This document shows positions 2,559 to 26,199 of a stretch of 26,199 nt of DNA, piece after piece. The stretch is from a virus. The position numbers and the translations under genes were made by a program. The DNA lies in IMG/VR virus record IMGVR_UViG_3300020160_001689, positions 1-26,199 of that record; one strand, written 5' to 3'. The notes under the pieces are model-generated. The model worked only from the letters and a program-made list of their open reading frames with translations, was not told the DNA's origin and searched no databases. The number at the start of each line of letters is the position of its first letter. The first letter of the stretch is position 1.

Positions 2559-5500
2559 TTATACCTGATTAAGTTGTGCATTTGTTATTGCTGGGATGAT
2601 CTGAATGTCGTTGGCTGTTACTGCACTGACAAAAATCTCATCCGGTCCGGCATTGACTTGAAATAAATTACCAAACTTCTGATTAGCGTCCTGTGATACA
2701 ATAACGACACTGCTAATATAAGAAGCTAATTTATTATGTAAATATGCACTAAGTTCAGTATAATAAAATGTTTCACCAAAATCCCAATTGTCAATAGAAA
2801 AATATTCATTTAATGCAGTGATAAGTCGAGACTTAATTTCAGTATCACTAATGTTAATTACTGAACTCTTAACTACTTTAAAAGTACCACGCAATGCTGG
2901 TGCGGCTTTTGCACCAAACAATGGTTTAAATACTGCGGTGTTGTAAATTATGGTATCGCTTATCATCTTGTAATTTTCTAAATCTGAGAAATTTAAAAGT
3001 AAATCTTCACTGCTAGGAATAGTTGGTTCTGTAATCTTTCCGGTTGCATCAGTTACCCAACGCACATAATCATCACTGTAATTTTTAGTTAATAGATATA
3101 AATCTATAATATTGTTTGGTGACGGATCAATTCGTCTATTGTTTGGACTATTGTGTCTATATTGAAAGGACAAATCTTGCCTACCAACTTTATATTCGTA
3201 GCTGGTCGATACTGTAATGGTTCTGGTATTACCAGCAATAGTCAATACATAGAATTTATCGTCAGTACTGGCATAAAATACTGTGCCATTTGTATATCTA
3301 GTTTTGGCTGCATTAATAGCGGCCTGTGTAGTATGTTGTAATATTATATCACCACTGGATATTGGAGTACGATCTTCGTTAGATTCTATTTTGTAATAAA
3401 CTCTCTTTGAGGTAGTATTAACACTGGGTGCAACAACATCAATGAAAAAATCTGGATTATTCGGAACTCCATCGTCGTCTATATCATTAAATGTCACACG
3501 AACTCTTTCGTTATTTTCGTATCCATCAGCACCAACTACACTATCATATACCGCTAACGTAGTGGGTGTTATCAATGGGGTAGCTGAGTCAGGTTGTGAG
3601 TTAATTTTTAATACTTTGATTTGATCAGTAACCACTAATCCAGTCTTGGGATCAAATACTCGTTGTGTATTATCAAAATAAAATCTTGTTTGTAATTCAC
3701 TTTCAAAGTAATAATCTAATCCACGATATGTAATAGTGTAGATTGCATTAGTGACCGTAAATTTAATTAACCAACTTGCATCCAAGTTACTATTTGCGCC
3801 AACTGTCGCATATGTTTGACTAAAACTACCAGTTGCATTTAAATCGTTGGGAGAAATAGTATACCAAGCCAACGTTACTGGATCATACCCCAATCCAAAA
3901 TTTTGATATTGGTCAATATAATCCACAACTTCTTGCCGTACTGTGCTGTTTAAGGAATCTACATATGGTGCAATTACCTGTATTGCTTCGGCACCATCTG
4001 GAATAATATCTGTTAATGCAACAGGTCCATTACCAAACGATGCTATCTCAGCCGCATCAAAAGTGCCATCACTATCAACAGACTTAATTGATGTGTATAT
4101 GTAGCGAGATTCACTTTCATATGTTGGGGTACCTGTTTGAATAGTACGATTAATATCAAAGTAATTACCTGCGCCAGCATCAAATTTTACTATAGCACCA
4201 GGGCGTAAATGAATACGCGGAGCACCTACATATGCACCAATTTGCAATAAATCTCCATTGCTTTGTTGGAAATTACCAGTAACAGTATTAGTGCCTATAG
4301 TTTGTTGATTCCAGTAAGTATTGGTTAATGTATACCGAGTAAAGTAAGAGTAATAAAAATGTTTAGTTGCTTGATCATTTAAAATAGGTGATATTTTACT
4401 TTCAATTACTTGTTGAATATCGCTTATGGTTGTAAATTCAAATGTCTGAGTTAGAGCAGTATCTTGTCTGTATACGATACCATCATCACAGAAGATATTT
4501 GTACTACTATACTTCCCAGTAGTGTCTAATACATCCAAATAACGGCTAATACCACTGCTTGTTCGGTTAACTGCTTTAACTTTAATTAAGTTATTGAATT
4601 TTGTAAATGGAAGAATATTGTAGTCTTCACCATTGACCATGCGATTCTGTACATAGTATTGTTGTGGAGCGTTAGTTCTAATATCTGACAGAGTTTCTCT
4701 GGATTTTGCATTAGTTACTGAATACTTTAAACTAACAGATAGAGTTAATGTCTCTGTTCTACCGGCTTTGCTAAGATATGGAATAGACAATTGCACATTG
4801 CTAATTTCGTCAGGAGTAATTCTATAATCTAAATTATTACTAGTTCTGTAAAATAAAGTAAATGGGCCTTGTGGGATATCAGCAAATATACCATCACCAA
4901 AAACTAAATCAATCTGATCATTACCACGTGATGCAACTTCAAATATTTTTCTATTAACATTATTAACAGTGTTATAAGCAATGTTTGTATTGCTTATGTT
5001 GGGTAATTGTGCCCATTGTGCAGTGGCAAAATTTAAACTGTTAAGTTGATACAACCAAATATCCAGATTGTTTATGTTATCAGTGTTGATACTAACCACT
5101 CTGTTTACTAAACTTTCCTGGAAATTTAATGATACACTTTGCAGTTCTCCTTGTTTAAACAACACAAAGAATCCAGTATTGTTACTGGCATTACCTAAAT
5201 TGTCGTTTCTAGCAATAAGGTTAAAAGTTGAACTAACGTTTGGACTGCTTTCATATATAAAACTTTGCCCTATGGTAGTACCACTTACTGCTTCAAATAT
5301 CATGTTGCTACCATTTACTTCTGACTTAAATTTATATACGTTACTGCCCTGTGATGACAACCTTAAACTATACTCGTCTGTTTTAACACCATTAAGATAT
5401 TGACTGTTTCCAGGTTTACCAACTCGCTGTCCTGAGATCATCGCTGAATTCATAACTGTAACAAACTGCTCATACCAATTTGAATTGGTATTGTCATTCC

Positions 5501-5930
5501 AAAATATTAATGCGTTGGATAAACTAACCCCATCACTGTCTGATATTTCTTCAGTTGTAGATATGCTATCTATTTTTAATACACCGCTGGCTGGAACGTT
5601 TCGTTGTGGTCGATAATTGACTAACCGTGCCAACCGCAATACGCTATCTCTGCGTTCAGCAGTATCAATGAAATTCTCTCTGGCATTAAGATCAGCACGG
5701 AAGGCTAAGTTTTGACCCAAGAATGCAATTAGATCGATTAATGCAATATATTCACTGCTTTCAATAAAATCGTTAAAATCTTCTGGATAATATAGACGTA
5801 AATAGTCAATCATGGACTTACGCAACGTTTCATAGTCGTAGGCTTTAAAGTCAGCGTTTCTAAAACTCTGATATACTTTGGTCCAGTCTTCTGCAACCAA
5901 TAATGTTTGTTGTCGTGTAATTTGTGCCAT
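2559..5930 (-). CDS. 6: Baseplate wedge protein gp6 (baseplate J-like)
   Basis: This 1123-residue protein matches the gp6/baseplate J family, which forms the inner ring of the baseplate wedge and joins neighbouring wedges around the hub. The N-terminal third is the most recognisable part: DFKAYDYETLRKSMIDYL, then YYPEDFNDF, SSEYIALIDLIAFLGQNLA and NARENFIDTAERRDSVLRLA, the typical start of the long gp6 proteins of environmental T4-like phages. T4 gp6 is about 660 residues, so this one is much longer, with extra beta-rich sequence in the middle and C-terminal half. The gp25-gp6 order is as in T4. The start follows a 45-base gap after gp25 that contains a CATAAATA late-promoter-like box; the Shine-Dalgarno is weak (AGAG). 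The stop lies two bases before the next gene. Identity is confident; the role of the extra length is unknown. Confidence 0.88.
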   Translation of the reverse strand: MAQITRQQTLLVAEDWTKVYQSFRNADFKAYDYETLRKSMIDYLRLYYPEDFNDFIESSEYIALIDLIAFLGQNLAFRADLNARENFIDTAERRDSVLRLARLVNYRPQRNVPASGVLKIDSISTTEEISDSDGVSLSNALIFWNDNTNSNWYEQFVTVMNSAMISGQRVGKPGNSQYLNGVKTDEYSLRLSSQGSNVYKFKSEVNGSNMIFEAVSGTTIGQSFIYESSPNVSSTFNLIARNDNLGNASNNTGFFVLFKQGELQSVSLNFQESLVNRVVSINTDNINNLDIWLYQLNSLNFATAQWAQLPNISNTNIAYNTVNNVNRKIFEVASRGNDQIDLVFGDGIFADIPQGPFTLFYRTSNNLDYRITPDEISNVQLSIPYLSKAGRTETLTLSVSLKYSVTNAKSRETLSDIRTNAPQQYYVQNRMVNGEDYNILPFTKFNNLIKVKAVNRTSSGISRYLDVLDTTGKYSSTNIFCDDGIVYRQDTALTQTFEFTTISDIQQVIESKISPILNDQATKHFYYSYFTRYTLTNTYWNQQTIGTNTVTGNFQQSNGDLLQIGAYVGAPRIHLRPGAIVKFDAGAGNYFDINRTIQTGTPTYESESRYIYTSIKSVDSDGTFDAAEIASFGNGPVALTDIIPDGAEAIQVIAPYVDSLNSTVRQEVVDYIDQYQNFGLGYDPVTLAWYTISPNDLNATGSFSQTYATVGANSNLDASWLIKFTVTNAIYTITYRGLDYYFESELQTRFYFDNTQRVFDPKTGLVVTDQIKVLKINSQPDSATPLITPTTLAVYDSVVGADGYENNERVRVTFNDIDDDGVPNNPDFFIDVVAPSVNTTSKRVYYKIESNEDRTPISSGDIILQHTTQAAINAAKTRYTNGTVFYASTDDKFYVLTIAGNTRTITVSTSYEYKVGRQDLSFQYRHNSPNNRRIDPSPNNIIDLYLLTKNYSDDYVRWVTDATGKITEPTIPSSEDLLLNFSDLENYKMISDTIIYNTAVFKPLFGAKAAPALRGTFKVVKSSVINISDTEIKSRLITALNEYFSIDNWDFGETFYYTELSAYLHNKLASYISSVVIVSQDANQKFGNLFQVNAGPDEIFVSAVTANDIQIIPAITNAQLNQV

Positions 5931-5975: not shown

Positions 5976-6350
5976 TTAAAGGCTCATTACTGCATTTTTG
6001 TTCTGATCAAATTGCATAATTAGCTTTGATGTTTGATTAGAGTTTACTAGACTTAAAATAATTTCCACTTGAACACCTTGGTCGTAACTGGTTACCGTGA
6101 CCTTATCAGCATTAACTCTAGGTTCATAATCTATAACTTGTTTAATCTCGTCAACTATTTTTTGTCTGGTATCTTCCATAAGTGGTTCAAATAAATGAGC
6201 CCATATTCCACAGCCAAACGTAGGGCGCATAAGTTTTTCACCACGCTTTATATTAAAGTGATTTATTAAATCACGCTTAATCAACTCAAAATCAGCTAAT
6301 CTAAATTTACGATTGGCTGATTGAGTATTAAATCCTTTGTACGTAGCCAT
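5976..6350 (-). CDS. 25: Baseplate wedge protein gp25
   Basis: This 124-residue protein belongs to the GPW/gp25 family, a conserved baseplate wedge component of contractile injection systems that binds gp6 and helps start sheath assembly. Visible family features are the N-terminal region leading to LIKRDLINHFNIKRGEKLM, the segment RPTFGCGIWAHLFEP and the conserved EPR triplet in VIDYEPRVNADKVTV. The length is normal for the family (T4 gp25 is 132 residues). Its ATG overlaps the gp5 stop as TAATG, and a GGGAG ribosome-binding sequence sits inside the end of gp5, implying translational coupling. The gp5-gp25-gp6 order agrees with the call. No catalytic role is known for the family despite its old 'acidic lysozyme' label. 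Confidence 0.93.
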   Translation of the reverse strand: MATYKGFNTQSANRKFRLADFELIKRDLINHFNIKRGEKLMRPTFGCGIWAHLFEPLMEDTRQKIVDEIKQVIDYEPRVNADKVTVTSYDQGVQVEIILSLVNSNQTSKLIMQFDQNKNAVMSL

Positions 6351-8491
6351 TATGCAATCAAACTCCCATTATTTGTTAACGTATTTATAGCAAATTTTCC
6401 CTTGGCCACGAAGGCTAATCCAGACATTCCAATACTATCGGCAGTAGATTGACCATATCTAGTGATATATGCTCCGGCTGCACCAAGGTGATGTGCTGAT
6501 GCCAATACTCCAGCTACATCTGCGGCACCGTCGCCTGGTTTAATTGCTCCGTTGCCCACACAACTGCGGAAATTGCTTTCGGTAAACGATTGCATAGTAA
6601 GTTCTTGTACACCTGGTGCTTGTAAGAACAGAGCTTTGCTGGTTATACCATTCATACCAGTCCAAGCACCTGGGTCATTTAATACCTGATTACCACTACT
6701 CAACCCACCATACAAGGAGTACAAATCTTTGCTGACTAATCCCTCGCCAACTAATGCACCAGCACCCATTTGATATTTGCCCACAAATCCTCCCAACGTA
6801 ACTGCATCATATTTCATGTCAGGTGCCGCCATTCCTACCATATATGCTTTGGTTTCATCTTTGGTTAATGTACCTATTGCGACCACTGGGTCTGGTTGTT
6901 TACCAAGATTATTTGCTAGGGTTCCAGCATCCTTGGGAACTGCCGCAACAGCCTTATTGTTATCTACCGGAGGAGGTGGTGTTGCACTATTTGGAACTCC
7001 TTCAATCACAGGAGTACCAGTGCTGGTAACACAATTCTTTGCTGGTGGAGGAGGTACCACTCCTTCAGTACCTTGTTTTTTTGCTTCTGCATCAGTCATT
7101 GCAATTGCATTTGGATTTCTAATTTGCTCAGCAATGACATTGTGATTGATATCAGGCTCATGTGTTGGTACTCGTGTTGCTACACTGCTTATACGTTTTG
7201 GCGAGCTTCTATAACTATCTGCTGTTAATAATGCGTTTGGATATGAGGAACGAGGAATGTCGGCTAATGGAGGCACAGTAGCAGTACCACCACAATTTAA
7301 GTTTACTTTCTCACCACGCAATGACAATGCCCCTGATGCTTTGATGTTTATTGCCGTACCACCATCTAAATTGGTAATTGCACCGCTTTTAAAATTTAAT
7401 GTACCACACGCATGAATTGTAGTATCTTTGGATGAATTAAGGTTGACATACAAACTCTGTAAATCTGTACCTTGTTCTGCCACAACTGTTAGTTTGTTAC
7501 CAGCATACATATTAATGTCTTTGTCAGCATGTAAATTAATACTGTTGGCTGCTCTAAGACTAAATGTGCCTTCACTGAAAATATCTATGTTGCCAGATGC
7601 ATCTAGTTCTACCCAAGCGGTACCTTTGGAATTGCTGATATAGATAAAGTCACTGGTATCATGCATCAATATTTGATGCCCACCACCAGTCTTTAGTCGT
7701 AAAAAATTATTTGCCCCAGTGGTATCTCCATCATCCATCACAAAGGTATGTCCACCTTTACGTATTTTTTTATTAGCTACATCTTTTCTATTAATTAATC
7801 TACCTGGTGTGCTAATACCAAATACTTGACTGGGGCTTTCGCGTTGACTTGAACTGAGAATTGGTCCACGAACGTAATCAAAGTCCAACCCTTGTTTGCG
7901 TAATTGCAACAATTGTTCTTGGTGCAATGGTTTATTATTCTTTTCCCAATTTGGTTGAGATCCTAAATCTTTATTTCTATCATTAAATTCTACTACCGGA
8001 ACTCGATCTGGTCGTCTATCGGAAGGAATTTCTTTATTATCGGTTATCCAATCACTGTTTATACTTGCACCCATACTGGGTACCATATAATGATTGTGTG
8101 CATCCATTATACAAGCAATCCAAAATCCTTTTGTAATATCCCCTTCAGCAAAAATTACCAATACTTTAATGCCAATATCTGGTGGCACCATCCACATACC
8201 ATACGATTGTCTAGTTGTATAGTATCCGTTTTTGTCTTCTTTACTATCTATGTCAGTAGTATAATGTCCATAATATGGTGGTGCATAATTTACCGTAACC
8301 CACTTAGTGTTGTCGTCTTCTTCTGGACTTAGTAAACCGACATATACTTGTAATCTGCCCATGCGTTGTGGGTCAACGTTGTTTTTAACAACGGCAATGT
8401 ATGGCCCAGAATTTACTACTGAGCCATCTTTTGCACCTTCCTGTGTAAACGGTGCTGGTTTATTGGTTGTTTGTGATCGTTCAATTGGCAT
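6350..8491 (-). CDS. 5: Baseplate central spike protein gp5-like, with OB fold, beta-helix and C-terminal muralytic-type domain
   Basis: This 713-residue protein forms the central spike of the baseplate. Residues about 28-150 contain the OB fold (IAVVKNNVDPQRMGRLQVYV, then WVTVNYAPPYYG and a PDIGIKVLVIFAEGD segment), as in gp5/VgrG-type spikes. Residues about 240-400 are regular short strands (GGGHQILMHDTSDFIYISN and similar) typical of the spike beta-helix. A proline-rich linker (PPPPAKN, PPPPVDNN) covers about 470-540. The final part (about 545-705) contains GFVGKYQMGAGAL and FLQAPGVQE, which look like a phage lysozyme/transglycosylase-type domain, but where I expect the catalytic Glu the sequence reads AAPDMKY. 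No T4-type lysozyme domain is present here; it lies in the neighbouring hub protein. The ATG has a GGAAA-type Shine-Dalgarno. Confidence 0.87.
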   Translation of the reverse strand: MPIERSQTTNKPAPFTQEGAKDGSVVNSGPYIAVVKNNVDPQRMGRLQVYVGLLSPEEDDNTKWVTVNYAPPYYGHYTTDIDSKEDKNGYYTTRQSYGMWMVPPDIGIKVLVIFAEGDITKGFWIACIMDAHNHYMVPSMGASINSDWITDNKEIPSDRRPDRVPVVEFNDRNKDLGSQPNWEKNNKPLHQEQLLQLRKQGLDFDYVRGPILSSSQRESPSQVFGISTPGRLINRKDVANKKIRKGGHTFVMDDGDTTGANNFLRLKTGGGHQILMHDTSDFIYISNSKGTAWVELDASGNIDIFSEGTFSLRAANSINLHADKDINMYAGNKLTVVAEQGTDLQSLYVNLNSSKDTTIHACGTLNFKSGAITNLDGGTAINIKASGALSLRGEKVNLNCGGTATVPPLADIPRSSYPNALLTADSYRSSPKRISSVATRVPTHEPDINHNVIAEQIRNPNAIAMTDAEAKKQGTEGVVPPPPAKNCVTSTGTPVIEGVPNSATPPPPVDNNKAVAAVPKDAGTLANNLGKQPDPVVAIGTLTKDETKAYMVGMAAPDMKYDAVTLGGFVGKYQMGAGALVGEGLVSKDLYSLYGGLSSGNQVLNDPGAWTGMNGITSKALFLQAPGVQELTMQSFTESNFRSCVGNGAIKPGDGAADVAGVLASAHHLGAAGAYITRYGQSTADSIGMSGLAFVAKGKFAINTLTNNGSLIA

Positions 8492-8509: not shown

Positions 8510-11500
8510 TTAGTTCTTCATTGCGGCACGAGCGGCGGCATTTCTCGCTTGTCTTTGTTCTGCTAAACTTAGCGCACCTGGGACACGTACTGGGCCGGTG
8601 TAAGCACCCAGTCGCTCACCAGTATCAGGATTAATGTTCGACATTGCAATTCTAGATTTTTCTGCCGCAATTACAGCATTTTCATCGCGTATTCTAGCAT
8701 TTCTTTCTTGATGTTGCGTTGCTTGACTTCGACCAAGCTCATCAACTCTAGTTATCCCAGTAACCGCACCGCCTTTGTTTTCCACAAATGTCGATCCAGC
8801 AGTACTTAATCTTGATGTGGTTGGTGTGGTTGTTAATGTGGCAGTTGTGGTTGTTACTGTTGGTGTGGTGGTTAATGTGGCAGTTGTGGTTTCTAGGTCA
8901 GCATTGGCTGTCATTGCCGCGCCCATATCTGCATCCTCTTGATCTGCCGCAGTAAGAGCACTTGCTTTTGTAACGTTGGCTTTGTTGGCATCTGGATCAT
9001 TATATAACCTTACCATTTCAAGTTTCTGTTTAAATAGTCCTCCAGATAATGTATTTTCAATAGTTAAAATTTTATATATACCAGTAAACGCATTCATTGT
9101 ATCAGCAGTTCCACCAGATCTGCGGGCCGAATCATTCGCACCAGGAAACTTAATTAACCCAGTTTCAGTATCTATATCAGTGGGAAATTTAAAATTTACT
9201 TTTATTAATAAATTTTTATCGCTCATAATCAAACTACCATCTTTATATGTCCGAGCGTTGGGGTTATCGGTTGATATCTCACGATATGCAGTTGATGGGC
9301 TAACTGTAAATTCTTCTTGTTGTAGATATCCAGGATCACCAACAATTTCCATACTCATTTGTAAAGTATCAACCGATCCACTATATATGTTAGCCATTAA
9401 GTCATTGGCCAGCATTGCATCAGTTTGTGCTTGTGTTAACTTATTCCCGCCCGGCATGGCCGGAGCAAAAACTAAAGATGTTGGTATTACTTTATTAAAT
9501 TTAGAATCTTGTTTACCTTCACCAGTGTTTTCTGCTTCGGCTTTGGCGGCGATCACGGCGGCTGAATTATTAACGTCTTGTAATCGAGCTGGTCTAGCAG
9601 AAACCGCGGTGTAAAATGAAGAATCAAAGTTAATTTTTAAATCTGTCACATCTACGTTTTGACCAGTAAACAGATAATTGTATTCCTTAACGCAATCAAC
9701 ATCTCGAGGTACGGTGCCTTTTTTAATGCCTGGATAAATTACTCCGTGCATCTTGTAAGGAGAAATTACAAATGTGATTTCTCTACAATAGTCATTTCTT
9801 TGAGGATCAAATTCCCCCATCGTAATTATTGGTGTAACTCTAAAGTGATTGAGCGGATCTCCTGCTTTTGTCAACTGTTCTTTGGCTTTGACTGGATCTT
9901 GTGCTTTGTTGGTGTCATTCTCCATCGCAGTATCCACTTCAATTTTAAGTTGATTGGTTATATAATCTGAACTTTTCATCATTTGATTAATAACCGTAAG
10001 TATACTGGTACCTTCTCGAAAAACCACATCAGTTCCGGTCAATGCCGCAAACTGTTGTGATGTTGCTATACCAACTGGTTGCTCTGCCGCAGGTGTTTGA
10101 GGGTTAGTTGGTGGGCAATCAGTAGTCCCCACTGTTGCAGCCGCTCCAATACCACCAGTGGTCGGACCACCGCCACCGGCACCTGCAATCATTGAAACAA
10201 TTTTTGGTGCTCTATTACCAACTTGCCCATACCATTGACTATTTTTAAGTTCGGCGGCTGCTCCAGAAAAATCCCCAGCTGATAATTTTTTAGTGAAAGC
10301 TGGGAAGCCCAAATACCAAGCGTTACCCATATTAAATGTCAAATCAATTAGAGCTCCTTGTCCTTGGGCATTACATAATTTAAATCCCGGAATGCTTTCG
10401 GCGGCTTTTGCGTGTGAATTAAAATCTTGAGTAAACAGCGCATCAATTTCTGCTGCCGAATAAGTTCGCATTTCAGGTTTAACTCTACCATTACCAATCA
10501 AATGTCCAACACCCACTGTCCACAGACCAAGGCTATCCTGATATGGTACATTTCTAACACCTTCGTGATCTTTAATCATTTGTTTTATATCAGCCGATCC
10601 ACTAATTATAGGTGCAGTAGATGTTGCGGTAGGCGTTTGTGCGCCTGGTCTAAGAGTTTCAGCATTTTGTTCTACTGGTTTTTTAGTCTCCATGGGTGCA
10701 GTATCACCAGGTAGTCGCCCTGGATCGCCTATTGTTGCCTTGTCGATTGGTGGTAAAAACGAAAACTTATATATAATTGGTGGTCCAACTAAATTGTATT
10801 CCTTTTGTAAAAATCTGTTATATTCGTTTAATACTGTGGCTAACCCAGTTGCATGGGTTCCTGTTGGTTTAGCAATACTGTTTGAATTCCTTTTATCATA
10901 TTCCACTGTGGCTGTTTCTGTAGTAAGTGGAGTTGGAGGAGGTTGCATAGGCTTAGTTGCCACTGGTACCGCTCCGCTTCCAGAAGTATTCTGCCCTGGT
11001 GCGGCAGCTTGTCGTGATAGTTCTGCTTCGTATTTCTTTTGCAACTCAGGTAAATCTTTATTGTATTTGTCTATCTCTTTTTGTCGGGCGTCAACCATGT
11101 CAGCAATTGCTTTATCTTTTCGTTCCTTGGTTGCGCCACCACGTGCTGAACTAAGTGAGGCCGCTTCGTCCTCATTCATTGAAAAGAAATCTGTAAGTAA
11201 ACGAGTACCACCAGCTCTAATAGTTGTAGTGGTAGGCAAGGTAACGTTTAACTCACTAAGTGCAGAATGATTGTAAGGTACCGCAGTAAAATTATATGTG
11301 GTACCTTTCTGATCAAATGCTATAGACATACTCAATAGCCGAATTGGGAAAATTCTAGTCCCTTCAGGAACTCGAACTGGGTTGTACGGTTCGTTACCTT
11401 GAATAGCCTTGTCACTGTACCCAAAAAAGTCCAATTGAATTATGTATGGGACTGACATATAATTCTTAATACCATAGTCACCACAGGTATTGATTAATCT

Positions 11501-12487
11501 ATCTAAAAAACTAATCCCATATGGTTCTATAATGGTAAAACTCATCTCAAGTGAATTAGTACCTTTGTTTTTACTGTTATGTCCAATAACCGAAGTCATT
11601 TTAAATGCGTCGAAATAAAAATCTGCTTCCCAATTTTTATTCCTAGAAAAGGTTGTGGTATCAACTCTGCCAGCACCAGCTACCAATACACGATTTCCGT
11701 CTGCTTTATACTCGCCAGTGTCTTGCAGTTTATTAAATGCATCTTTTGGCAAGATATGTAAACTTAAGTTGTATGTATATGTGGCATAACCATGTAATGG
11801 ATTCGTTATTGGTTCAAATTTTGGGTTGTTGCTGGTTGACGTTTTACCAGTATCTTGACTTGTGCCGGTGGTTGCTTCTGGACCACTGGATGCGTTAACT
11901 GGTACTGGGGGTTCGGCAGTATTCTCTTTGGAATTATCATCTGCATTTGTAGTGCCGCCAGGGAGTGGTAAATCATCGGTGATATATGTTTGCTGAGAAG
12001 CTGTATTATCAAGTCTAGATTTTTCTTCAGCAGTTAATGTGCCAGAAGGAATAGGTTGCGGTTCGGCTTGGGTACTTTGCTGTGGTACGGATGCCGCAGT
12101 TTCAGCTGTGGGCTGTGCGGCCTTTTCAGTCTCTGGTGTAGTAGCAACTACTGGTTTTTCTTGTGCCTGTAATTCTGATTCCAACTGTAGTCGCGCATCG
12201 GTTAATGCTTTTTTTTCTGCCTGAGCGGTTATTAAGTCAGAGCGTAATGCTGCCAATGCGCTAATTTTTGTCGCCAAGTTAGCTTTTGCGCTATCGTAGT
12301 CTGCTTGCCCAGTTGGTAACAGGGTATCGCCCTTTGCAAGCACACGTTCGGCTCTTGCAATAGTGCTTTCATATTTAGATACTTCACCGCTCAATGTTTC
12401 TTCGGTTGATAATAAATTATTAACTTTATAGCTGGTGCTTTTTTCATCAGCTTTAGCTTGATTAACTTGTTCTTGTGTAACAGCCAT
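8510..12487 (-). CDS. Baseplate hub protein with an embedded T4-type (GH24) lysozyme domain
   Basis: This 1325-residue multidomain protein starts with a coiled coil (about 1-115) and a Gln/Glu/Thr/Pro linker (to about 225). A hub-like beta domain follows (about 229-430, NPLHGYATYTYNLSLHILP onward), then a second charged coil near 446-500. Residues about 628-770 are a T4-lysozyme-type domain: HEGVRNVPYQDSLGLWTVG carries Glu642, Asp651 and Thr657 at the same spacing as the T4 lysozyme catalytic triad E11-D20-T26, followed by VGHLI and a downstream GALIDLTFNMGNAWYLGF. Hub-like sequence resumes from about 810 to 1200. The C terminus is Thr-rich, then basic. It probably sits at the gp27 hub position and cuts peptidoglycan during injection. 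Cytoplasmic lysis is a less likely role given its place between gp53 and gp5. The lysozyme call is strong; the gp27 relation is inferred from location and domain style. Confidence 0.82.
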   Translation of the reverse strand: MAVTQEQVNQAKADEKSTSYKVNNLLSTEETLSGEVSKYESTIARAERVLAKGDTLLPTGQADYDSAKANLATKISALAALRSDLITAQAEKKALTDARLQLESELQAQEKPVVATTPETEKAAQPTAETAASVPQQSTQAEPQPIPSGTLTAEEKSRLDNTASQQTYITDDLPLPGGTTNADDNSKENTAEPPVPVNASSGPEATTGTSQDTGKTSTSNNPKFEPITNPLHGYATYTYNLSLHILPKDAFNKLQDTGEYKADGNRVLVAGAGRVDTTTFSRNKNWEADFYFDAFKMTSVIGHNSKNKGTNSLEMSFTIIEPYGISFLDRLINTCGDYGIKNYMSVPYIIQLDFFGYSDKAIQGNEPYNPVRVPEGTRIFPIRLLSMSIAFDQKGTTYNFTAVPYNHSALSELNVTLPTTTTIRAGGTRLLTDFFSMNEDEAASLSSARGGATKERKDKAIADMVDARQKEIDKYNKDLPELQKKYEAELSRQAAAPGQNTSGSGAVPVATKPMQPPPTPLTTETATVEYDKRNSNSIAKPTGTHATGLATVLNEYNRFLQKEYNLVGPPIIYKFSFLPPIDKATIGDPGRLPGDTAPMETKKPVEQNAETLRPGAQTPTATSTAPIISGSADIKQMIKDHEGVRNVPYQDSLGLWTVGVGHLIGNGRVKPEMRTYSAAEIDALFTQDFNSHAKAAESIPGFKLCNAQGQGALIDLTFNMGNAWYLGFPAFTKKLSAGDFSGAAAELKNSQWYGQVGNRAPKIVSMIAGAGGGGPTTGGIGAAATVGTTDCPPTNPQTPAAEQPVGIATSQQFAALTGTDVVFREGTSILTVINQMMKSSDYITNQLKIEVDTAMENDTNKAQDPVKAKEQLTKAGDPLNHFRVTPIITMGEFDPQRNDYCREITFVISPYKMHGVIYPGIKKGTVPRDVDCVKEYNYLFTGQNVDVTDLKINFDSSFYTAVSARPARLQDVNNSAAVIAAKAEAENTGEGKQDSKFNKVIPTSLVFAPAMPGGNKLTQAQTDAMLANDLMANIYSGSVDTLQMSMEIVGDPGYLQQEEFTVSPSTAYREISTDNPNARTYKDGSLIMSDKNLLIKVNFKFPTDIDTETGLIKFPGANDSARRSGGTADTMNAFTGIYKILTIENTLSGGLFKQKLEMVRLYNDPDANKANVTKASALTAADQEDADMGAAMTANADLETTTATLTTTPTVTTTTATLTTTPTTSRLSTAGSTFVENKGGAVTGITRVDELGRSQATQHQERNARIRDENAVIAAEKSRIAMSNINPDTGERLGAYTGPVRVPGALSLAEQRQARNAAARAAMKN
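8821..8893. repeat. 39-bp direct repeat, about 1.9 copies, in the hub gene
   Basis: A 39-base unit beginning TTGGTGTGGT at 8821 recurs at 8860 with a T-to-G change, and the second copy fades after about 33 bases. It encodes the Thr-rich part of the C-terminal tail of the hub protein (ATLTTTPT repeated). It is probably a replication-slippage duplication in a flexible tail. Confidence 0.75.
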
Positions 12488-12488
12488 A

Positions 12489-12788
12489 TTAGATGCCCAA
12501 CGCTGTAGTTAGGTTTTGTTTTTTAGGTACAAAAATTTGTAATCCTGGAACAAAATCAAATACTGAATCTTTGATTGTGTTTGGATTACGTACCGCAAAT
12601 ACCCACCACAATCTGGAATCCTGATATAAGTCATATGCCAATAAGTCTGGTCTATTTCTGTATGCCTCAGTCAATGTTACTTGTACATCATCAACTTGCA
12701 TAGGAAAAGTTCGCTTATTCATAACATCTAAAAAGTTGCCATACGATGACGTATCGTAGTATGGACTGGATTTGCTATAGTCAGCCAT
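12489..12788 (-). CDS. 53: Baseplate wedge protein gp53
   Basis: This 99-residue protein matches the short form of gp53, the wedge component that connects the wedge to the hub during baseplate assembly. Recognisable parts are SPYYDTSSYGNFLDVMNKR at the start, then LTEAYRNRPDLLAYDLY, the aromatic run SRLWWVFAVRNP and the ending SVFDFVPGLQIFVPKK, which looks like the LysM-like end of the family. T4 gp53 is 196 residues, so this is the compact version found in many environmental relatives. Its ATG overlaps the previous stop as TAATG and is preceded by a strong GGAGG Shine-Dalgarno nine bases upstream. The stop lies immediately before the hub gene. Confidence 0.88.
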   Translation of the reverse strand: MADYSKSSPYYDTSSYGNFLDVMNKRTFPMQVDDVQVTLTEAYRNRPDLLAYDLYQDSRLWWVFAVRNPNTIKDSVFDFVPGLQIFVPKKQNLTTALGI

Positions 12789-14542
12789 TAAATAAATCCT
12801 CCTTTGATCAGTTCGCCACTGGCGAATGTTTTCATATCAAACTTCCTCACTTGCTCTCTGCTGTAGATTGGTGCAACTGTAAAACTCATATTGTCAATTT
12901 GACTTGGTACTCTGGTGTTGCCATATTTTTTAACTGGTATATAATCAACATCAGCTGATAAATTATATGTGAAGTTCTTGACTACTACTGGCACTTTCTT
13001 CCACTGATAGTCGCCATGCCCATACAGATGTAACACTGGCGGTGGCGATCCAGCATCTGTGCTTGCTCCAAAAAACATCTTGGTAACCATTTTACCAAAC
13101 GTAAGTATAGCCAACATCATTTCTGCTTCGATTTGATTTTGTGCTGTGAACATACCCTGCAATTGTATATCTTGTATTTCACTACTGTTATAAAATTGCG
13201 CGGCATAGTTGCTATGAGTTAGTTTTTGTGATGTCCATTCTGCCGCATATGTCACTGTGATACTTGGTGTATATGGAAATACCACTCCGCTACCTTTTAA
13301 CGGTTCCATTATTCCAGTGCATAATCTGCTGGCCAATGCCGATGGCAATACCATACGTACTCGCCAATCTGCATCAAAACTCATGCCGTTGTTACTTGGT
13401 GACACTGCCCGGTTAGTATCAAATGCTGATGATTGAGCTCCCTGTGATCCGTTTGCATTTAATCCAGCCCCTCTTAACCGAGCTGAGCTGCCAGTCTCAT
13501 CTTCAGAATCTTCCCAGTTTTTTTCATCAATTTCTGATTGACTTAATCCCAGCTGTTCTGGTTGCTCACCTTCATCTTCAGCTTCTTCACTTTCATATCC
13601 TTCTGTTGGATCTTGCGGATCATCAGCAATTGCTTCATTGTTTTCATCGTTTTCAGTATCGGCGGCATCTTGTGCTTCTGCTTCTGCAAGTTCTGCATTG
13701 TCACTTGAGCGAGCATAATCATTTGTGGCAAAAATTAATGCTTCTTGTGCGACGTCGTGTTCTGGTGTGCCAGGTGTGGTCGCAGCAAGCTCTTCTTGTG
13801 CTACCAGCATGGAGCCATATGCACTGTCTTTCTCTGCCTTGGCCGCATTGGCTGCTTCTTTAGCTAGTGATGCAATAGTATCTGGGTTGGCATTATCAGC
13901 AGGCTGTCCGCCAACTGTTGGTACCGTTGCCAATGTTGACGTATTAGTCACTGCTCGATTGCCTTCAGGAACAATTTGAGCACCTGCTATAGTTCCGGCC
14001 GCTTCGGCAGTAGCTATGTGATTTACGTCTGTTGTTCGCGCTTCAACTATACGTTGAGTTGTGTTTACTTGTTCAGATATTTTGTGAGCCGCATCTGATG
14101 CATCGGATCTGTCGCTGGCATATTGATCAGCTTTATTTTGCAATGCTTGAACTTCTTGTGGCGATGCACCAGCGGCTTTGGCTGTTTCGACCGCAGAATT
14201 TAATTGCTTTTGTTCGGCCCGCGAAAAACTATTGGCTGTTTCGTATGCCGCCGCTTCTTGAGTGCTTAAAACTGTTAATTTATTTGTTGCGGCTGATAAT
14301 TCTGCTTGTTGTGCTGCCAAAATCTTTTTTTGCTGTTCGGCTGGTGCCAGTGTAATCTCTGGTTTCAATCCAAATATTTGAAGCACTTGAGCAGGAGGAT
14401 TTGGCCCGTATGATAGTTTGAGATTGTCCCGAATATCCTTATCTCTCACTATTTGTTTTGCTGTTTCAGACAGGTCGCCATACTGGCGTTGAAGGCCAGT
14501 AGTTGGGTCAGTAACTAGCGTATCGCTTGTAAAGAGGGCCAT
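12788..14542 (-). CDS. 48: Baseplate tail-tube cap/junction protein (gp48/gp54-like) with long coiled-coil N-terminal extension
   Basis: This 584-residue protein has two clear halves. Residues about 387-584 (SFDADWRVRMVLP, then GVVFPYTPSITVTYAAEW, HSNYAAQFYNSS, QLQGMFTAQNQIEAEMM, PPPVLHLYGHGDY and SADVDYIPVKKYGNTRVPS) resemble the tube-like domain of proteins that cap the baseplate and start the tail tube in T4-like phages. Residues about 55-370 are Ala/Glu/Gln-rich coiled coil followed by a very acidic stretch (about 275-330, with repeated Asp/Glu), which ordinary gp48 (364 residues in T4) lacks. The start has AGGAC-type ribosome-binding sequences upstream and is the first gene of the leftward baseplate operon. 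I cannot separate gp48 from gp54 with certainty. The extension may contact the tape measure or the coiled-coil start of the hub protein. Confidence 0.72.
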   Translation of the reverse strand: MALFTSDTLVTDPTTGLQRQYGDLSETAKQIVRDKDIRDNLKLSYGPNPPAQVLQIFGLKPEITLAPAEQQKKILAAQQAELSAATNKLTVLSTQEAAAYETANSFSRAEQKQLNSAVETAKAAGASPQEVQALQNKADQYASDRSDASDAAHKISEQVNTTQRIVEARTTDVNHIATAEAAGTIAGAQIVPEGNRAVTNTSTLATVPTVGGQPADNANPDTIASLAKEAANAAKAEKDSAYGSMLVAQEELAATTPGTPEHDVAQEALIFATNDYARSSDNAELAEAEAQDAADTENDENNEAIADDPQDPTEGYESEEAEDEGEQPEQLGLSQSEIDEKNWEDSEDETGSSARLRGAGLNANGSQGAQSSAFDTNRAVSPSNNGMSFDADWRVRMVLPSALASRLCTGIMEPLKGSGVVFPYTPSITVTYAAEWTSQKLTHSNYAAQFYNSSEIQDIQLQGMFTAQNQIEAEMMLAILTFGKMVTKMFFGASTDAGSPPPVLHLYGHGDYQWKKVPVVVKNFTYNLSADVDYIPVKKYGNTRVPSQIDNMSFTVAPIYSREQVRKFDMKTFASGELIKGGFI

Positions 14543-19634: not shown

Positions 19635-19868
19635 TTACTTGTTCTTCCAAATACTATACAATACCCAAACTGCTACCAAACCCACTAAACCTTGAGAACC
19701 TATTGATGCCACTATTGATGTAATGTTTGAGATCACTGAGGTAGCTGGGAAGAAAGGAATCGCAATCCCTTTAAACAAAACCTCTAGAACGATGGACAAG
19801 GCAATGATGCTTACGCCCAAGTCGGCCAGGGAACTGGCCCATTTTTTAACTGCGGTAATAATTTCCAT
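19635..19868 (-). CDS. Small two-helix membrane protein, holin candidate
   Basis: This 77-residue protein has two hydrophobic helices (about residues 16-36 and 54-73), a lysine near the start (VKKW) and a basic end (WKNK). I do not recognise a named family. Small size, two membrane spans and charged ends are the features of small phage holins, which form holes in the inner membrane at lysis; an inner-membrane role in injection or host take-over is equally possible. The ATG has a good AGGAG Shine-Dalgarno nine bases upstream, and a TCTAAATA late-like box lies 44 bases upstream, so late expression is likely. No endolysin gene lies beside it, which weakens the holin idea. Confidence 0.65.
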   Translation of the reverse strand: MEIITAVKKWASSLADLGVSIIALSIVLEVLFKGIAIPFFPATSVISNITSIVASIGSQGLVGLVAVWVLYSIWKNK

Positions 19869-21118: not shown

Positions 21119-23890
21119 ATGCCTGACCAAGATGAACAGTTAAAAAAGATACTGGAAGCGTTTGAGCGCATCGCCAAAAGTGATTCTGGAAAAAACTCAA
21201 CAGTTGAAAAAGGGCTGGGGATTTCTGCTCTTGCGACACAATTTGCAAAATTAAAAAGTGATTCGGTCTTTTTAGGTAATAGTTTTAAAGATCAAGTTAA
21301 AATACATGTACAATTAAAAGCACGAGAACAAGAAAAATTAAAACTTCTTGAAAAAGAACTAGCAATATTAGCAAAACAAACAGACCAATGGTCTAAAACA
21401 CAGTTAGCTGAGAAACAGAAAGAAAAAGCAACATTGGCCAGTGTTGACTCAGTGGGTATATTTAATAAAACAGTAATGTTTAGTGGCGCGGCTCTTGCAG
21501 GATTTTCTAAAGGGTTAATAAATTTAAGCGGCAGTGCATTTAGTAAGTTTACGTCAGGACTTAGTGGTATACAATCTGGCGCGGGCGCAATTCAGTCTGG
21601 AACTGGATTATTAACCAGTGCAATTGATCTAGCATCTGAAGCAGGATCTGCTGCCGGCAAAGGACTCCAAGGCGTTGGCACGATAGCAATGGCTGGAGGT
21701 CCAAAATTAAAAGCATTGGGTGCGGCTGCATCAGTAGCTGGCATGATGCTGGATGCTTTTGCGAGTGGTGCTGGTAAAGCCGCCAAGTTTGCAGTAGAGT
21801 TTTTAGGCAAACAATTAGAACAAGTTCGTGAAGGTTTCCAGACAATGAGCGCATCGGGTGCCGTATTTTCAAACGGCATGACTGGCATGATTGATGCGGC
21901 TCATGGTGCTGGATTAACAGTACAGCAATTTGGTAAAGTAGTCAAGGAAAATGCCAAAGATTTAGCCGCCAGCGGGTTGGGAATGACAGGCGCAACTGAA
22001 AAATTAGGCAAAGTTACCACACAAATTAATAACTCTGGTGTTGGCGAAAGATTGCAAAAGTTGGGATTTACGTTTGAGGAGCAAGCAGGTCTAGTTGCAG
22101 ATGTAATGGGCCAAATGAACAAGTACGGAACTGGCCGTGGCATGAGTGATGCCAAACTAGCACAAGAAACAGAAAAATATGCCAAAGATCTCAGACTGAT
22201 ATCAGGTATTACTGGTGAAGATGCCAAAGCAAAAATTGCTCAAGCTCGTGAAGCTGCCAATAACCTAGCATTTCAAAATAAGTTAGCAGAAATGGCACCT
22301 GAACAAGCAAGAGCAATGCAAGATGCTATGGCAGGTATGACCAAACAGCAACAAAAAGATTTTATGGAAATGCAAGTTTTTGGTACTGTGGTCAATAAAA
22401 CTGGTGCAGTAATGATGGCAAGCAGTAATGGTTACTCTAGTATGATGCAAGAACTAACCACTGCAACAAATCCAGAAGATGTTATAAAAATTAAAGCCAA
22501 ATACAAAGACGAAATACAGCAAGATAGAAAAAATTCCGAAGGAATCGGAATGGCTGCAATGGCCGGGGTTGGTGGCGTAGGGGATATTGCGGCAGCATTT
22601 AATGAAACGTTAACTGATATTGCAAAATTTACACCTGAAGCATTTGAAAAAGTTAAAACTTCTGTTGAAAATGCCGCCAGTACGCAAGACAAACTTACTG
22701 GCGAATACATTGCTATGGAAAGGGCATATCAAAATCAACGAGTAGAATTAGAAACTTTTGCTATTAGCCACATGAATACATATATTGAGGGTGTTAAAAC
22801 CGTTAACAAATTAATGACCGCCGCAATTGAAGAGATGAAGAAAATACCCGGACCATTGGGATTTATTCAAGATAATTGGATGAAAATTCTTGAAGGAGCA
22901 GTGGGAATAATTGGTGCAATTGCTACAGCCACTGGCATACTTGCATCACTTAAACAAAATCGCCAACTAAATGACCAAGCAAAAGCTAATACAACACCGC
23001 CACCAACAACTCCAACTGGCCCGGGTGCGCCTGGCGGGAGTGGACCCAAAGGTGGCGGACCCAAAGGTGGTAACCGTAAACAACGAAGAGCCGCAAAATT
23101 CCAAAATAAAGGCAAGTCCGGTGCCGCCGGTGCCATAGCTGGTGTACTTGGTGGTGGTGCTCCTGACGGATCAGCCGCCAATCCTTTCCATGTTGTAATG
23201 GCAAGTGGTGGTCCTGGTATATCAGATTTATTAGACGGTGGGAAAAACAAAGGTACTCCCACTAAAACTCCTTCTAAACTTGGAACAATTGCAAAAGTTG
23301 GTGGTAAAGCATTGGGTGCCGCAGGGTCAGTTATAGCAGTTGGTATGATGGCAAGTGAGCTAAGTGACATATCCAAGAGATTAGAAAAAGGCGAGATAAC
23401 CAAAGAAGAAGCATCTAAACAAAAAGGCGGAGCCATTGGTGAAGCTGGTGGTGGTGTTGCTGGTGGTTTGGCAGGTGCGGCAATGGGTGCGGCAGTTGGC
23501 TCAGTAGTACCGGTAGTAGGTACAATAATTGGTGGATTAATTGGTGGAGCATTGGGTGCTTGGGGTGGTGGTGTTGCTGGTAAAGCTGGTGGAGAAGCAG
23601 TTGGAACTTCGGTTGGCAAAGGCGGAGCAACTCCAACTACACAAGCAGCCACAGTGGCTCAATTATCAGAAGCACAAAAATTAAGTTCTACACAATATGC
23701 CGAAACACTTAAAGCAATGGATTTAACACAGCCAGACTTGCTGATTAATAAGTCAGTGGCCGAGCAACTTAAGTTAGCCAAAGCTGGTAATACCATGTTC
23801 ACAGAGCAAAACAAACTGTTAGAAAAAATGGCTAAATCTCTAGAAGATCAGTCAGACTACTTAAAGAACATCAGAGGCAATACTGCGTAA
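21119..23890 (+). CDS. Probable tail tape measure protein
   Basis: This 923-residue protein has the build of a tape measure, which sets tail length and lies inside the tube. The N terminus (1-115) is charged coiled coil. Residues about 120-245 are Gly/Ala/Ser-rich and hydrophobic. The middle (about 250-570) is helical with many Gln, Lys and Met residues and segments such as KQQQKDFMEMQVFG. A Pro/Gly/Lys-rich linker follows (about 620-670). Residues about 775-830 form a Gly/Ala zipper (GSVVPVVGTIIGGLIGGALG) that could enter the membrane during ejection. The C terminus is helical again. No peptidase motif is seen. It is divergent from gp26 and near the gp51-position gene, in keeping with a hub/tape measure block. 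The call rests on composition, length and place; another internal virion protein is possible. Confidence 0.68.
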   Translation: MPDQDEQLKKILEAFERIAKSDSGKNSTVEKGLGISALATQFAKLKSDSVFLGNSFKDQVKIHVQLKAREQEKLKLLEKELAILAKQTDQWSKTQLAEKQKEKATLASVDSVGIFNKTVMFSGAALAGFSKGLINLSGSAFSKFTSGLSGIQSGAGAIQSGTGLLTSAIDLASEAGSAAGKGLQGVGTIAMAGGPKLKALGAAASVAGMMLDAFASGAGKAAKFAVEFLGKQLEQVREGFQTMSASGAVFSNGMTGMIDAAHGAGLTVQQFGKVVKENAKDLAASGLGMTGATEKLGKVTTQINNSGVGERLQKLGFTFEEQAGLVADVMGQMNKYGTGRGMSDAKLAQETEKYAKDLRLISGITGEDAKAKIAQAREAANNLAFQNKLAEMAPEQARAMQDAMAGMTKQQQKDFMEMQVFGTVVNKTGAVMMASSNGYSSMMQELTTATNPEDVIKIKAKYKDEIQQDRKNSEGIGMAAMAGVGGVGDIAAAFNETLTDIAKFTPEAFEKVKTSVENAASTQDKLTGEYIAMERAYQNQRVELETFAISHMNTYIEGVKTVNKLMTAAIEEMKKIPGPLGFIQDNWMKILEGAVGIIGAIATATGILASLKQNRQLNDQAKANTTPPPTTPTGPGAPGGSGPKGGGPKGGNRKQRRAAKFQNKGKSGAAGAIAGVLGGGAPDGSAANPFHVVMASGGPGISDLLDGGKNKGTPTKTPSKLGTIAKVGGKALGAAGSVIAVGMMASELSDISKRLEKGEITKEEASKQKGGAIGEAGGGVAGGLAGAAMGAAVGSVVPVVGTIIGGLIGGALGAWGGGVAGKAGGEAVGTSVGKGGATPTTQAATVAQLSEAQKLSSTQYAETLKAMDLTQPDLLINKSVAEQLKLAKAGNTMFTEQNKLLEKMAKSLEDQSDYLKNIRGNTA

Positions 23891-23936: not shown

Positions 23937-26199
23937 ATGAAAATTTCCGCAATTTTACCAAAACCACGTTTGTTCGAAGATATGATCAGAGAAGATACAA
24001 CTTATAAAGCATTTAATCGTGCTGGTCGTATGCTGGTTGAGAGACAAATGAGCGAAAAAGAAATTTTAGACTTGTTTGCAAACATTGAAAAGGGTGTAAC
24101 AGCCGCTGGTAAAATGCCAGGTGGTGCTAGTAACAGAACTTTATTGGGCAAAGGCAAAGATACGGCAACAGATGCGGCAACAGCAATTTCCAACGCATTT
24201 AGAGCAGTCGATAAAAAAATTGGTATTTCAAGCGGCATAGAAAGTTTTGATACTAGTTATGACATATTAGCCAGAAAACTCGGCGACAAGTTCGGGCAAG
24301 ATGGTAAAATAATGACTGCAATTAAAAAATATCGTGAATTTGCAAACGCACATCCAATTATGCAAGGCGCAATCTATGCAGGTTTGATAGCATTAACTGG
24401 ATTAAGTGGTGCAGGACTTGGTGGTGCGGCTATTCTTGGTGGTATAAAGCTGTTTGACAAGTTGCTATTGGGTAACAAATTAAGTAGCTCACTGTGGTCT
24501 GGATTCTTAACTGGTGCAACAGCATACGGAATTGGACAAGCTCAACAAGCATTTAGTGGCGGATCCGCGCCAGCTTTTGATCCTAGCAAAATGCCGGCAT
24601 ATGATGATGCCGGCAACTTGATGCCCGGTTTCAAAATTAATCCCGAAACTGGCGGTACTTACTACAATCCTGATTCTACAGCCCTGCCAGGCGCAGGCCC
24701 TGACCCACTCGCCCCCGGCACGCCGGTCACACCACAATCACAAATGAATGCGGATGATATTGCAAATGGCAGTGGTGGACCAGATGTGCCAGCTTTAGAT
24801 GCAGAAACTATGGCTAACAACGCCGCAAATGCCAAAGCATATGGCATAGATGGTGCGGATTCCACTGCTGATATGAATAAAGCAATTATGCAAACTGCCG
24901 AGCCAGGCACTACTCCGGCTGATTATAGTCAGCTAGGTGCCGCAGGTAATGGTACAGAGTATACTGTAGTTAAAAATGATACACTGAGCCAGATTGCTGA
25001 AAAAAACAATGTATCTGTTCCTGATATGATGAAGGCCAACCCAGACATAACAAACCCTGATGTTTTAAAGACCGGGCAAAAAATTACTATTCCAGCTGAA
25101 ACTGGTAATTCAGTATACGACCAAGGAGTGGGTACCGCGTCAGACACAGCCGCTAAAGTAGCCAGTGGACAGTACACCCCAAATCCAGCATCTGCGGCAC
25201 CAGCACCAGTACCAACACCAACACTTAAGGCAGCACCAGGTCAGCAGGTTGCCGAATCACGCCGTAACATGAACAATATGTTGATGGAAGCAATTGTAGC
25301 TACAACCAACTCCATTAAACCATTCAAAGCCAAAACTATTGATTTGTCAGCAATGATTGATCGTCAAACAACAGCACATGTTTGGATGTTGGGTGAATCG
25401 TTGGGTCGTAATTACAAACATCGTTACCATATTACAGAAGCTGGTATAGACAATATATTTAAAAACGTAGAAAGATATCAACGTCATATACAAATAGTAG
25501 TTACGGAATCATTATTAAACGAAGATGCACCACCAGCAGGCGGAGCACCTAAGCCAGAAATCTATGATAAAAATAATCCAGAGCATGTAGCATCAATGGC
25601 AGCTACGACTACTGCAAGAAGAGCAAGAAGAGCCGCGGCAGCAGATGCAAAACCAGCAGGAGCACCAGCAGGAGCACCAGCAGGAGCACCGGCAGGAGCA
25701 CCGGCAGGAGCACCGGCAGGAGCACCAGCAGGAGCACCAGCACCAGCACCAGCAGGTGCAACAGCAGCCGGAGCATCCACGCCAAAAAAACCAGGCTTAC
25801 TGAGTAGAATGTGGGCAGGTGCTAAACAACTTGGGCATCAGTTTACCACAAAAATTACTGCCGAGAAGTTAAGAATGAATTGGGGGAAAGATAAACCAAC
25901 TGAATCAGATGAAATTGCAACCTTCCTGCAAGGTCAAGGAGTGCCAGCAACGGTAATTTCAGATGTGTTTACTCAATCAAAATTACCAGTACCGCAAGCA
26001 ATAACAGACGCGGCAGCAGTACCAGCACCAGATGCAGCCGCAGGTGGAACAGCAACACCAGCAGGAGGAGGTGCAGCCGCAGGTGGCCCAGGTAATCCTG
26101 ATAATCCAGCAGTAGCTAAAGCCAAAGCCGCACTGGGAATTAAACCAGATACTCCAGCAGAAGCACCAGCAGAAGCACCAGCAGGAGCACCAGCAGGAG
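23937..26199 (+). CDS. LysM-domain virion-associated protein with Pro-Ala-Gly-Ala repeats (partial, 3' end beyond the right edge)
   Basis: The frame opens at ATG 23937 and has no stop to the window end, so at least 754 codons are present. The first 135 residues are helical (start MKISAILPKPRLFEDMI). Residues about 138-205 are hydrophobic and Gly/Ala-rich (HPIMQGAIYAGLIALTGLSG, then GGAAILGGIKLFDKLLLG), a possible membrane segment. Residues about 340-390 are a LysM domain, EYTVVKNDTLSQIAEKNNVS followed by ANPDITNPDVLKTGQKITIP, which usually binds peptidoglycan. A helical part follows (about 440-525), then seven PAGA repeats (about 573-600), a module with KLRMNWGKDKPTESDEIATF, and a second repeat array at the edge. 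An exact late promoter precedes it. I know no named family for the whole protein; an internal or tail protein that meets the cell wall is inferred. Confidence 0.7.
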   Translation, partial: MKISAILPKPRLFEDMIREDTTYKAFNRAGRMLVERQMSEKEILDLFANIEKGVTAAGKMPGGASNRTLLGKGKDTATDAATAISNAFRAVDKKIGISSGIESFDTSYDILARKLGDKFGQDGKIMTAIKKYREFANAHPIMQGAIYAGLIALTGLSGAGLGGAAILGGIKLFDKLLLGNKLSSSLWSGFLTGATAYGIGQAQQAFSGGSAPAFDPSKMPAYDDAGNLMPGFKINPETGGTYYNPDSTALPGAGPDPLAPGTPVTPQSQMNADDIANGSGGPDVPALDAETMANNAANAKAYGIDGADSTADMNKAIMQTAEPGTTPADYSQLGAAGNGTEYTVVKNDTLSQIAEKNNVSVPDMMKANPDITNPDVLKTGQKITIPAETGNSVYDQGVGTASDTAAKVASGQYTPNPASAAPAPVPTPTLKAAPGQQVAESRRNMNNMLMEAIVATTNSIKPFKAKTIDLSAMIDRQTTAHVWMLGESLGRNYKHRYHITEAGIDNIFKNVERYQRHIQIVVTESLLNEDAPPAGGAPKPEIYDKNNPEHVASMAATTTARRARRAAAADAKPAGAPAGAPAGAPAGAPAGAPAGAPAGAPAPAPAGATAAGASTPKKPGLLSRMWAGAKQLGHQFTTKITAEKLRMNWGKDKPTESDEIATFLQGQGVPATVISDVFTQSKLPVPQAITDAAAVPAPDAAAGGTATPAGGGAAAGGPGNPDNPAVAKAKAALGIKPDTPAEAPAEAPAGAPAG
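25653..25736. repeat. 12-bp tandem repeat, seven copies, encoding PAGA
   Basis: The unit CCAGCAGGAGCA (or CCGGCAGGAGCA) occurs seven times without a gap and encodes Pro-Ala-Gly-Ala each time; three central copies share an A-to-G change, which points to duplication of a block. Degenerate CCAGCA units follow. The copy number is probably unstable. Confidence 0.92.
26154..26199. repeat. Second 12-bp repeat array, cut by the window edge
   Basis: Two CCAGCAGAAGCA units are followed by one CCAGCAGGAGCA and a partial copy that reaches the last base. They encode Pro-Ala-Glu-Ala and Pro-Ala-Gly-Ala. It is nearly identical in DNA to the array about 500 bases earlier. Confidence 0.85.

Follow-up and report, generated by a model that had tools for sequence, protein, structure and literature searches.

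Hub proteins that bear peptidoglycan hydrolases are already known (A-1(L) gp15 and Deep-Blue Gp189). The Tal proteins of siphophages are both hub proteins and peptidoglycan hydrolases, and in Tal-type hubs an NlpC/P60-type peptidase is appended at the C-terminus. NlpC/P60 domains are carried by Deep-Blue Gp189 and Vp4 Gp110 (PMC11406892). Gp15 of the Anabaena myophage A-1(L) is a trimeric hub with lysozyme, endoglucanase and peptidase domains in addition to its barrel (PMC10966104; PDB 8kea), with lysis of host cells demonstrated for the isolated endoglucanase and for the isolated peptidase domain (PMC10966104). In the T4 gp27-gp5 cell-puncturing device, the gp5 lysozyme digests peptidoglycan for the tube (PMC3004832). 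This GH24 domain is located in gp5, between the OB domain and the beta-helix, and gp27 has none. The jumbo phages RaK2 and CBB carry a lysozyme at the gp5 C-terminus (PMC3622015, PMC5259590).

The DNA analyzed here, from an uncultured T4-related phage (the window; 26,199 nt, positions 1 to 26,199 of virus record IMGVR_UViG_3300020160_001689) encodes a single GH24 lysozyme domain in the middle of the hub protein. The window phage shares with T4 a hub, an OB/beta-helix spike and a linker-tethered GH24 domain at the tail tip, presumably with the same job, but the GH24 domain is in the hub rather than in gp5 (the T4 gp5-type layout of OB, GH24 and beta-helix in one chain is absent), and the end of the window gp5 is occupied by another module that is catalytically degenerate. 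RaK2 and CBB share a related gp5 and gene order with the window phage and likewise have a lysozyme away from the T4 position; theirs is in gp5, whereas the RaK2 hub has no GH24 domain. A-1(L) gp15 has a lysozyme-like domain near the N-terminus (residues 56-265), followed by the endoglucanase and a C-terminal peptidase, while the window hub has one GH24 domain before hubC, the second half of the hub fold. Unlike A-1(L), the window phage is T4-like and its gp5 spike bears its own lytic-transglycosylase-like domain. In contrast to the Tal-type hubs, the enzyme is a glycosidase inside the hub fold.

The minus strand of the window carries a T4-type baseplate operon in the order tail protein, gp53-like protein, hub, gp5, gp25, gp6-like protein and the end of a gp7-like gene (coordinates are listed in the table). 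Homologues of gp55, gp47, gp46 and gp26 are found on the other side. PA5oct, Atu_ph07, Phosso and RaK2 share the order gp46/gp47/gp55, structural protein, gp53, hub and gp5, so the proximity of the hub and gp5 genes is a habit of this clade. Several other genes have features of their own. The tail protein has a conserved C-terminal part (PHROG 12050 at residues 409-539) following approximately 400 coiled-coil-like, Ala/Glu/Gln-rich residues, and a comparable region opens the hub (residues 1-225). On the plus strand, a 923-aa tape-measure-like protein (21119-23890) adjoins the gp26 gene. Next to the tape-measure-like gene is an open-ended 754-aa protein (23937-26198, plus strand) with a LysM domain (PF01476; E-value: 2.2e-13) and a long (GAPA)n repeat; it is a possible second wall-binding tail component. 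A 77-aa ORF between the endonuclease and gp26 genes (19635-19868, minus strand) has two likely transmembrane helices and may encode a holin-like or virion membrane protein.

Table. Baseplate genes and protein domains in the window, listed along the minus strand.
Feature	Position	Strand	Basis
Tail protein	12788..14542	-	PHROG 12050
gp53-like baseplate wedge gene, directly upstream of hub	12489..12788	-	PHROG 7145 (E-value: 1.2e-25)
Baseplate hub gene, 1325 aa, with inserted lysozyme	8510..12487	-	Uninterrupted open frame
hubN, hub residues 228-425, first beta-rich hub domain	11213..11806	-	Profile matches in relatives, AF2, fold alignment
Hub middle segment, residues 541-600, strand-helix-strand, immediately precedes insert	10688..10867	-	Conserved in alignments A1 and A4
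Linker 1, hub residues 598-631, P/T/A-rich, predicted disordered	10595..10696	-	AF2 pLDDT < 50
GH24 lysozyme domain, hub residues 632-770	10178..10594	-	PF00959, PDB matches, VIA-align
Linker 2, hub residues 771-818, G/T/P/A-rich, predicted disordered	10034..10177	-	AF2 pLDDT < 50
hubC, hub residues 819-1156, second half of hub fold	9020..10033	-	Profile matches, fold match
gp5 spike gene, 713 aa, OB and VgrG-type beta-helix	6350..8491	-	PF04717
gp5 C-terminal lytic-transglycosylase-like domain, gp5 residues 545-710	6362..6859	-	105-domain alignment, AF2, VIA-align
gp25 baseplate wedge gene, downstream of gp5	5976..6350	-	PF04965 (E-value: 1.5e-15)
gp6-like gene	2559..5930	-	

The hub GH24 domain has the conserved domain PF00959 (Phage_lysozyme, hub residues 639-757; E-value: 9.4e-17, 62 bits against a Pfam cut-off of 22.3). 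A search of PDB sequences matched it to T4 lysozyme (E-value approximately 1e-13), and VIA-align Z-scores against T4 lysozyme chains are as high as 14.3. Residues E642 (codon 10562-10564), D651 (10535-10537) and T657 (10517-10519) align with Glu11, Asp20 and Thr26 of T4 lysozyme, and the Glu-8x-Asp-5x-Thr triad spacing is intact. An earlier note on this DNA had placed a lysozyme with a full triad at 10170-10605, and these results bear it out with slightly narrower limits. Judged by profile and triad, this is a complete T4-type lysozyme, and muralytic activity is predicted. The G+C content is 0.44 over the GH24 domain and 0.37-0.46 along the hub gene, which is not diagnostic.

The GH24 domain is flanked on either side by sequence of a conserved hub family. 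Hub residues 204-421 match PHROG 11190, annotated as virion structural protein (E-value: 4e-33), and the stretches conserved among the hub ORFs next to gp5 (more than 100) are residues 228-422 and 825-1156. Profiles built from hubN (residues 226-430) and hubC (residues 801-1160) match the gp5-adjacent protein in more than 100 ORFs, including those of PA5oct, Atu_ph07, Phosso, RaK2 and SCTP-2. An AF2 model of residues 226-1160 (53 sequences, mean pLDDT 72) was aligned by VIA-align with the A-1(L) hub 8kea (Z 14.3, 272 residues, rmsd 3.9), the best-scoring hub structure among the matches listed, as well as the Anabaena contractile injection system 7b5h (Z 13.7, 308 residues), Bas63 9ndy (Z 13.5, 295 residues), Mu gp44 1wru (Z 13.3, 296 of 325 residues) and P1 9vzk (Z 13.1). 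These alignments (272-309 residues) cover about model residues 1-14 to 935, beginning in the first barrel, ending at the final strand and crossing the insert. Foldseek results with the whole hub were filled by T4 lysozyme, and the hub matches came from VIA-align. The predicted fold on both sides is thus of the Mu gp44 type. The earlier note had expected hub folds resembling T4 gp27 around a GH24 match: the match and the flanking hub folds were recovered, but T4 gp27 itself is absent among the VIA-align matches listed, and the hub profile had only chance matches to PDB sequences.

The GH24 domain is bounded by stretches of low model confidence. Most of model residues 364-406 (linker 1) and 547-592 (linker 2), or about hub residues 589-631 and 772-817, have pLDDT values below 50. 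The secondary structure of the segment preceding the insert (residues 541-600) was taken from the same model. In many freshwater relatives (L024, L025, L037, L040, L044, L054, L063, L067, L074, L083 and others; L-numbers denote contigs of relatives), the hubN and hubC portions of the hub are separate, neighboring genes; in many, gp5 is likewise divided, with the OB/beta-helix part in one gene and the transglycosylase-like domain in a second gene downstream. The hub split does not mark the GH24 site: it lies upstream of the middle segment (L024, L037, L074), while the GH24 domain follows that segment.

An OB domain (PF04717; E-value: 8e-9) was identified in the neighboring gp5, along with a beta-helix signal of the VgrG type, based on a DUF2345 match below threshold. 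This gp5 shares 35.7% identity with the PA5oct "baseplate hub subunit and tail lysozyme", aligned over 59% of the length. No GH24 domain was found in it by Pfam search, in agreement with the earlier note, and the hub domain is the sole GH24 of the whole record. That note overlooked a separate lytic-transglycosylase-like domain at the end of gp5. The AF2 model of this domain has a pLDDT of 91 and VIA-align Z-scores of 7-10.6, with matches to Cj0843 (10.6), MltC (9.7), MltE (9.3) and Slt (8.9) as well as gp144. Foldseek E-values are above 1, and the fold assignment therefore rests on the AF2 model, the VIA-align scores and the motifs. PF06737 is matched by 8 of 47 members (best E-value: 8e-4), and a profile of the domain had only chance matches to PDB sequences. 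It is predicted to have a fold like that of the lytic transglycosylase/goose-lysozyme superfamily.

The gp5 C-terminal domain is conserved in the clade, in some relatives as a separate downstream gene. Of 105 distinct domains, 38 retain the catalytic Glu and 67 lack it; the window and L009, a near twin, belong to the latter. The ES(GG)...Y...GKYQ motif is intact in L010, L011, L200 and others, among them L179 and L181, which with L180 are the sister contigs of the window phage. In the window and L009, the Glu position is occupied by A556 or, with another placement of a two-residue gap, by D558 (codons 6818-6826). The domain appears to remain constrained despite this loss, as the window and L009 copies differ by 16 synonymous and 4 non-synonymous changes. 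Throughout the group L013-L088, the domain is strongly conserved and lacks both the catalytic Glu and the GKYQ motif.

The hub GH24 domain could be an extra enzyme beside a gp5 domain that still functions, with D558 or another residue substituting for Glu. The sister phages provide a precedent, since L179 and L181 have both a hub GH24 domain and an intact ESGG motif in gp5; in the window, the constraint on the gp5 domain and the ungapped reading that puts D558 at the Glu position are consistent with the same arrangement. Against this, neither the window nor L009 has a Glu near the motif (gp5 residues 547-582), and changes of Glu to Asp or Ala normally cripple enzymes of this superfamily. Two working muralytic domains are thus unlikely in the window phage, although this is the strongest of the alternatives. 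Loss of the gp5 Glu is not a strict counterpart of GH24 gain. GH24 domains were found neither in the eight searched contigs of the L013-L088 group (91-352 kb) nor anywhere in 15 of the 17 searched records of relatives. A strict swap rule is unsupported because many relatives lost Glu without a detectable GH24 domain, and as gp5 Glu loss is not tied to hub GH24 gain, takeover by the hub is one story among several.

The origin of the hub lysozyme was examined by comparison with other GH24 domains. It shares 49-63% identity with GH24 domains carried by tape-measure/tail-tip-like proteins that other T4-like phages (such as L002 and S-SM1) encode near gp26, and 27% identity with the T4 gp5 lysozyme. 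Identity to the gp5-borne GH24 domains of Vibrio phage 2.275.O and RaK2 is 31-32%. The S-SM1 "endolysin" SSM1_016 (48% identity) and similar T4-like tail proteins fall in the same GH24 branch as the window domain, but their carriers are tape-measure/tail-tip-like and without hub domains. The idea that cyanophage proteins with a mid-protein GH24 domain, such as SSM1_016, are also hubs was rejected, as the GH24 loci fetched gave no hub profile matches; their flanks look tape-measure-like. In the hub tree, the window, L179 and L181 form one clade (support 100/100), with a hubC 45% identical between the window and L179/L181. The hub GH24 domains of L179 and L181 are only 21-27% identical to that of the window and, by sequence comparison, are a different subfamily. 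Constraining the hub-borne GH24 domains to group together costs 104 log units (AU test; p-AU 2e-64). Because the hubs are one clade and their GH24 domains are not, either the lysozyme was replaced in place or the site was entered twice.

The earlier note proposed that the lysozyme domain had moved between neighboring genes of one phage, from gp5 to the hub. The two genes adjoin, and one GH24 subfamily does occur in both locations in relatives: the closest relative found for the L179/L181 hub domain is the C-terminal GH24 domain of L238 gp5 (53% identity). This link is seen only there. The window domain is far more similar to the tape-measure/tail-tip-like lysozymes than to that of T4 gp5 or the sister hubs, and the usual gp5 module of the clade is lytic-transglycosylase-like rather than GH24 and is still present in the window. 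Given the identities, the tree and the AU test, simple relocation is quite improbable, and an origin from the neighboring gp5 is not supported for this phage. Less probable still is that the hub GH24 domain is a structural or binding relic with no catalytic role in infection. In many relatives the catalytic residue is missing from the lysozyme-like domain at the tail tip, but the window GH24 domain has a complete E/D/T triad, a PF00959 score well above the cut-off and substantial identity (49-63%) to other GH24 domains.

The insert is rare. The distance between hubN and hubC is 74-198 residues in 107 hubs and 403-459 residues only in the window, L179, L180 and L181, with none in between (counts include re-fetched copies). 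The order hubN-GH24-hubC recurs in the three sister contigs, which are 180,565 bp (L179), 54,456 bp and 51,474 bp long. Over its full length, the L179 hub shares 33% identity with that of the window, and its PF00959 match (53.6 bits) is at the equivalent position. A second assembly across the GH24 junctions of the window itself was not found, as the L009 contig begins inside gp5. That two genes were joined by an assembly error, a caveat of the earlier note, can be dismissed as highly improbable: although the exact junctions are known from a single contig, the hub frame (12487-8510) has zero internal stops, the flexible linkers are in-frame, identity between the hub lineages covers both flanks, and the presence of GH24 at the equivalent place in three sister contigs excludes a simple mis-assembly.

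The proposed model for the hub of the window phage, which is the probable reading of these data, is as follows. The 1325-aa protein would be a trimeric hub of the Mu gp44/T4 gp27 type in a myovirus of the T4 superfamily (trimeric by homology), with the GH24 domain held between the two hub-fold halves by flexible linkers of about 35-48 residues on each side. As the hub is a trimer by homology, three lysozymes would be tethered around it, directly behind the spike. Sheath contraction would drive the spike and hub through the outer membrane, allowing the tethered lysozymes to reach the peptidoglycan and digest it for the advancing tube, the role of the gp5 lysozyme in T4. The different way of placing the enzyme at the tail tip that the earlier note envisaged is implied by this position within the hub, with a presumed location in the virion. 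In the window lineage, the hub enzyme would have taken over from the C-terminal domain of gp5, which, without its Glu, is probably retained as a structural or cell-wall-binding part. The GH24 domain would thus replace the muralytic domain of the spike, while in the sister phages it would add to it. The insertion site may serve as an entry point for differing GH24 modules on one hub backbone, and the donor of the window module would be a tape-measure/tail-tip-type lysozyme of another T4-like phage rather than the neighboring gp5.

The most unusual part of this system is that one hub slot has different GH24 contents. No description of a GH24 domain inserted in the hub of a T4-superfamily phage, or exchanged in place, was found in the open-licence literature. 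More tentatively, the hub may be regarded as having an enzyme slot: on a vertically evolving hub, an unrelated GH24 domain possibly replaced the lysozyme cassette in situ, muralytic function may pass between the spike C-terminus and the hub, and the abandoned spike copy could be kept as a catalytically dead structural part. In a contractile-tail phage, the timing and manner of cell-wall opening depend on where the wall-degrading enzyme is placed. The sequences compared here suggest that this slot was refilled during evolution, such that the enzyme can change both place and type while the hub backbone retains a single ancestry. This calls for caution in the default annotation of gp5 as "tail lysozyme" and makes the placement of the tail lysozyme an evolvable, testable property.
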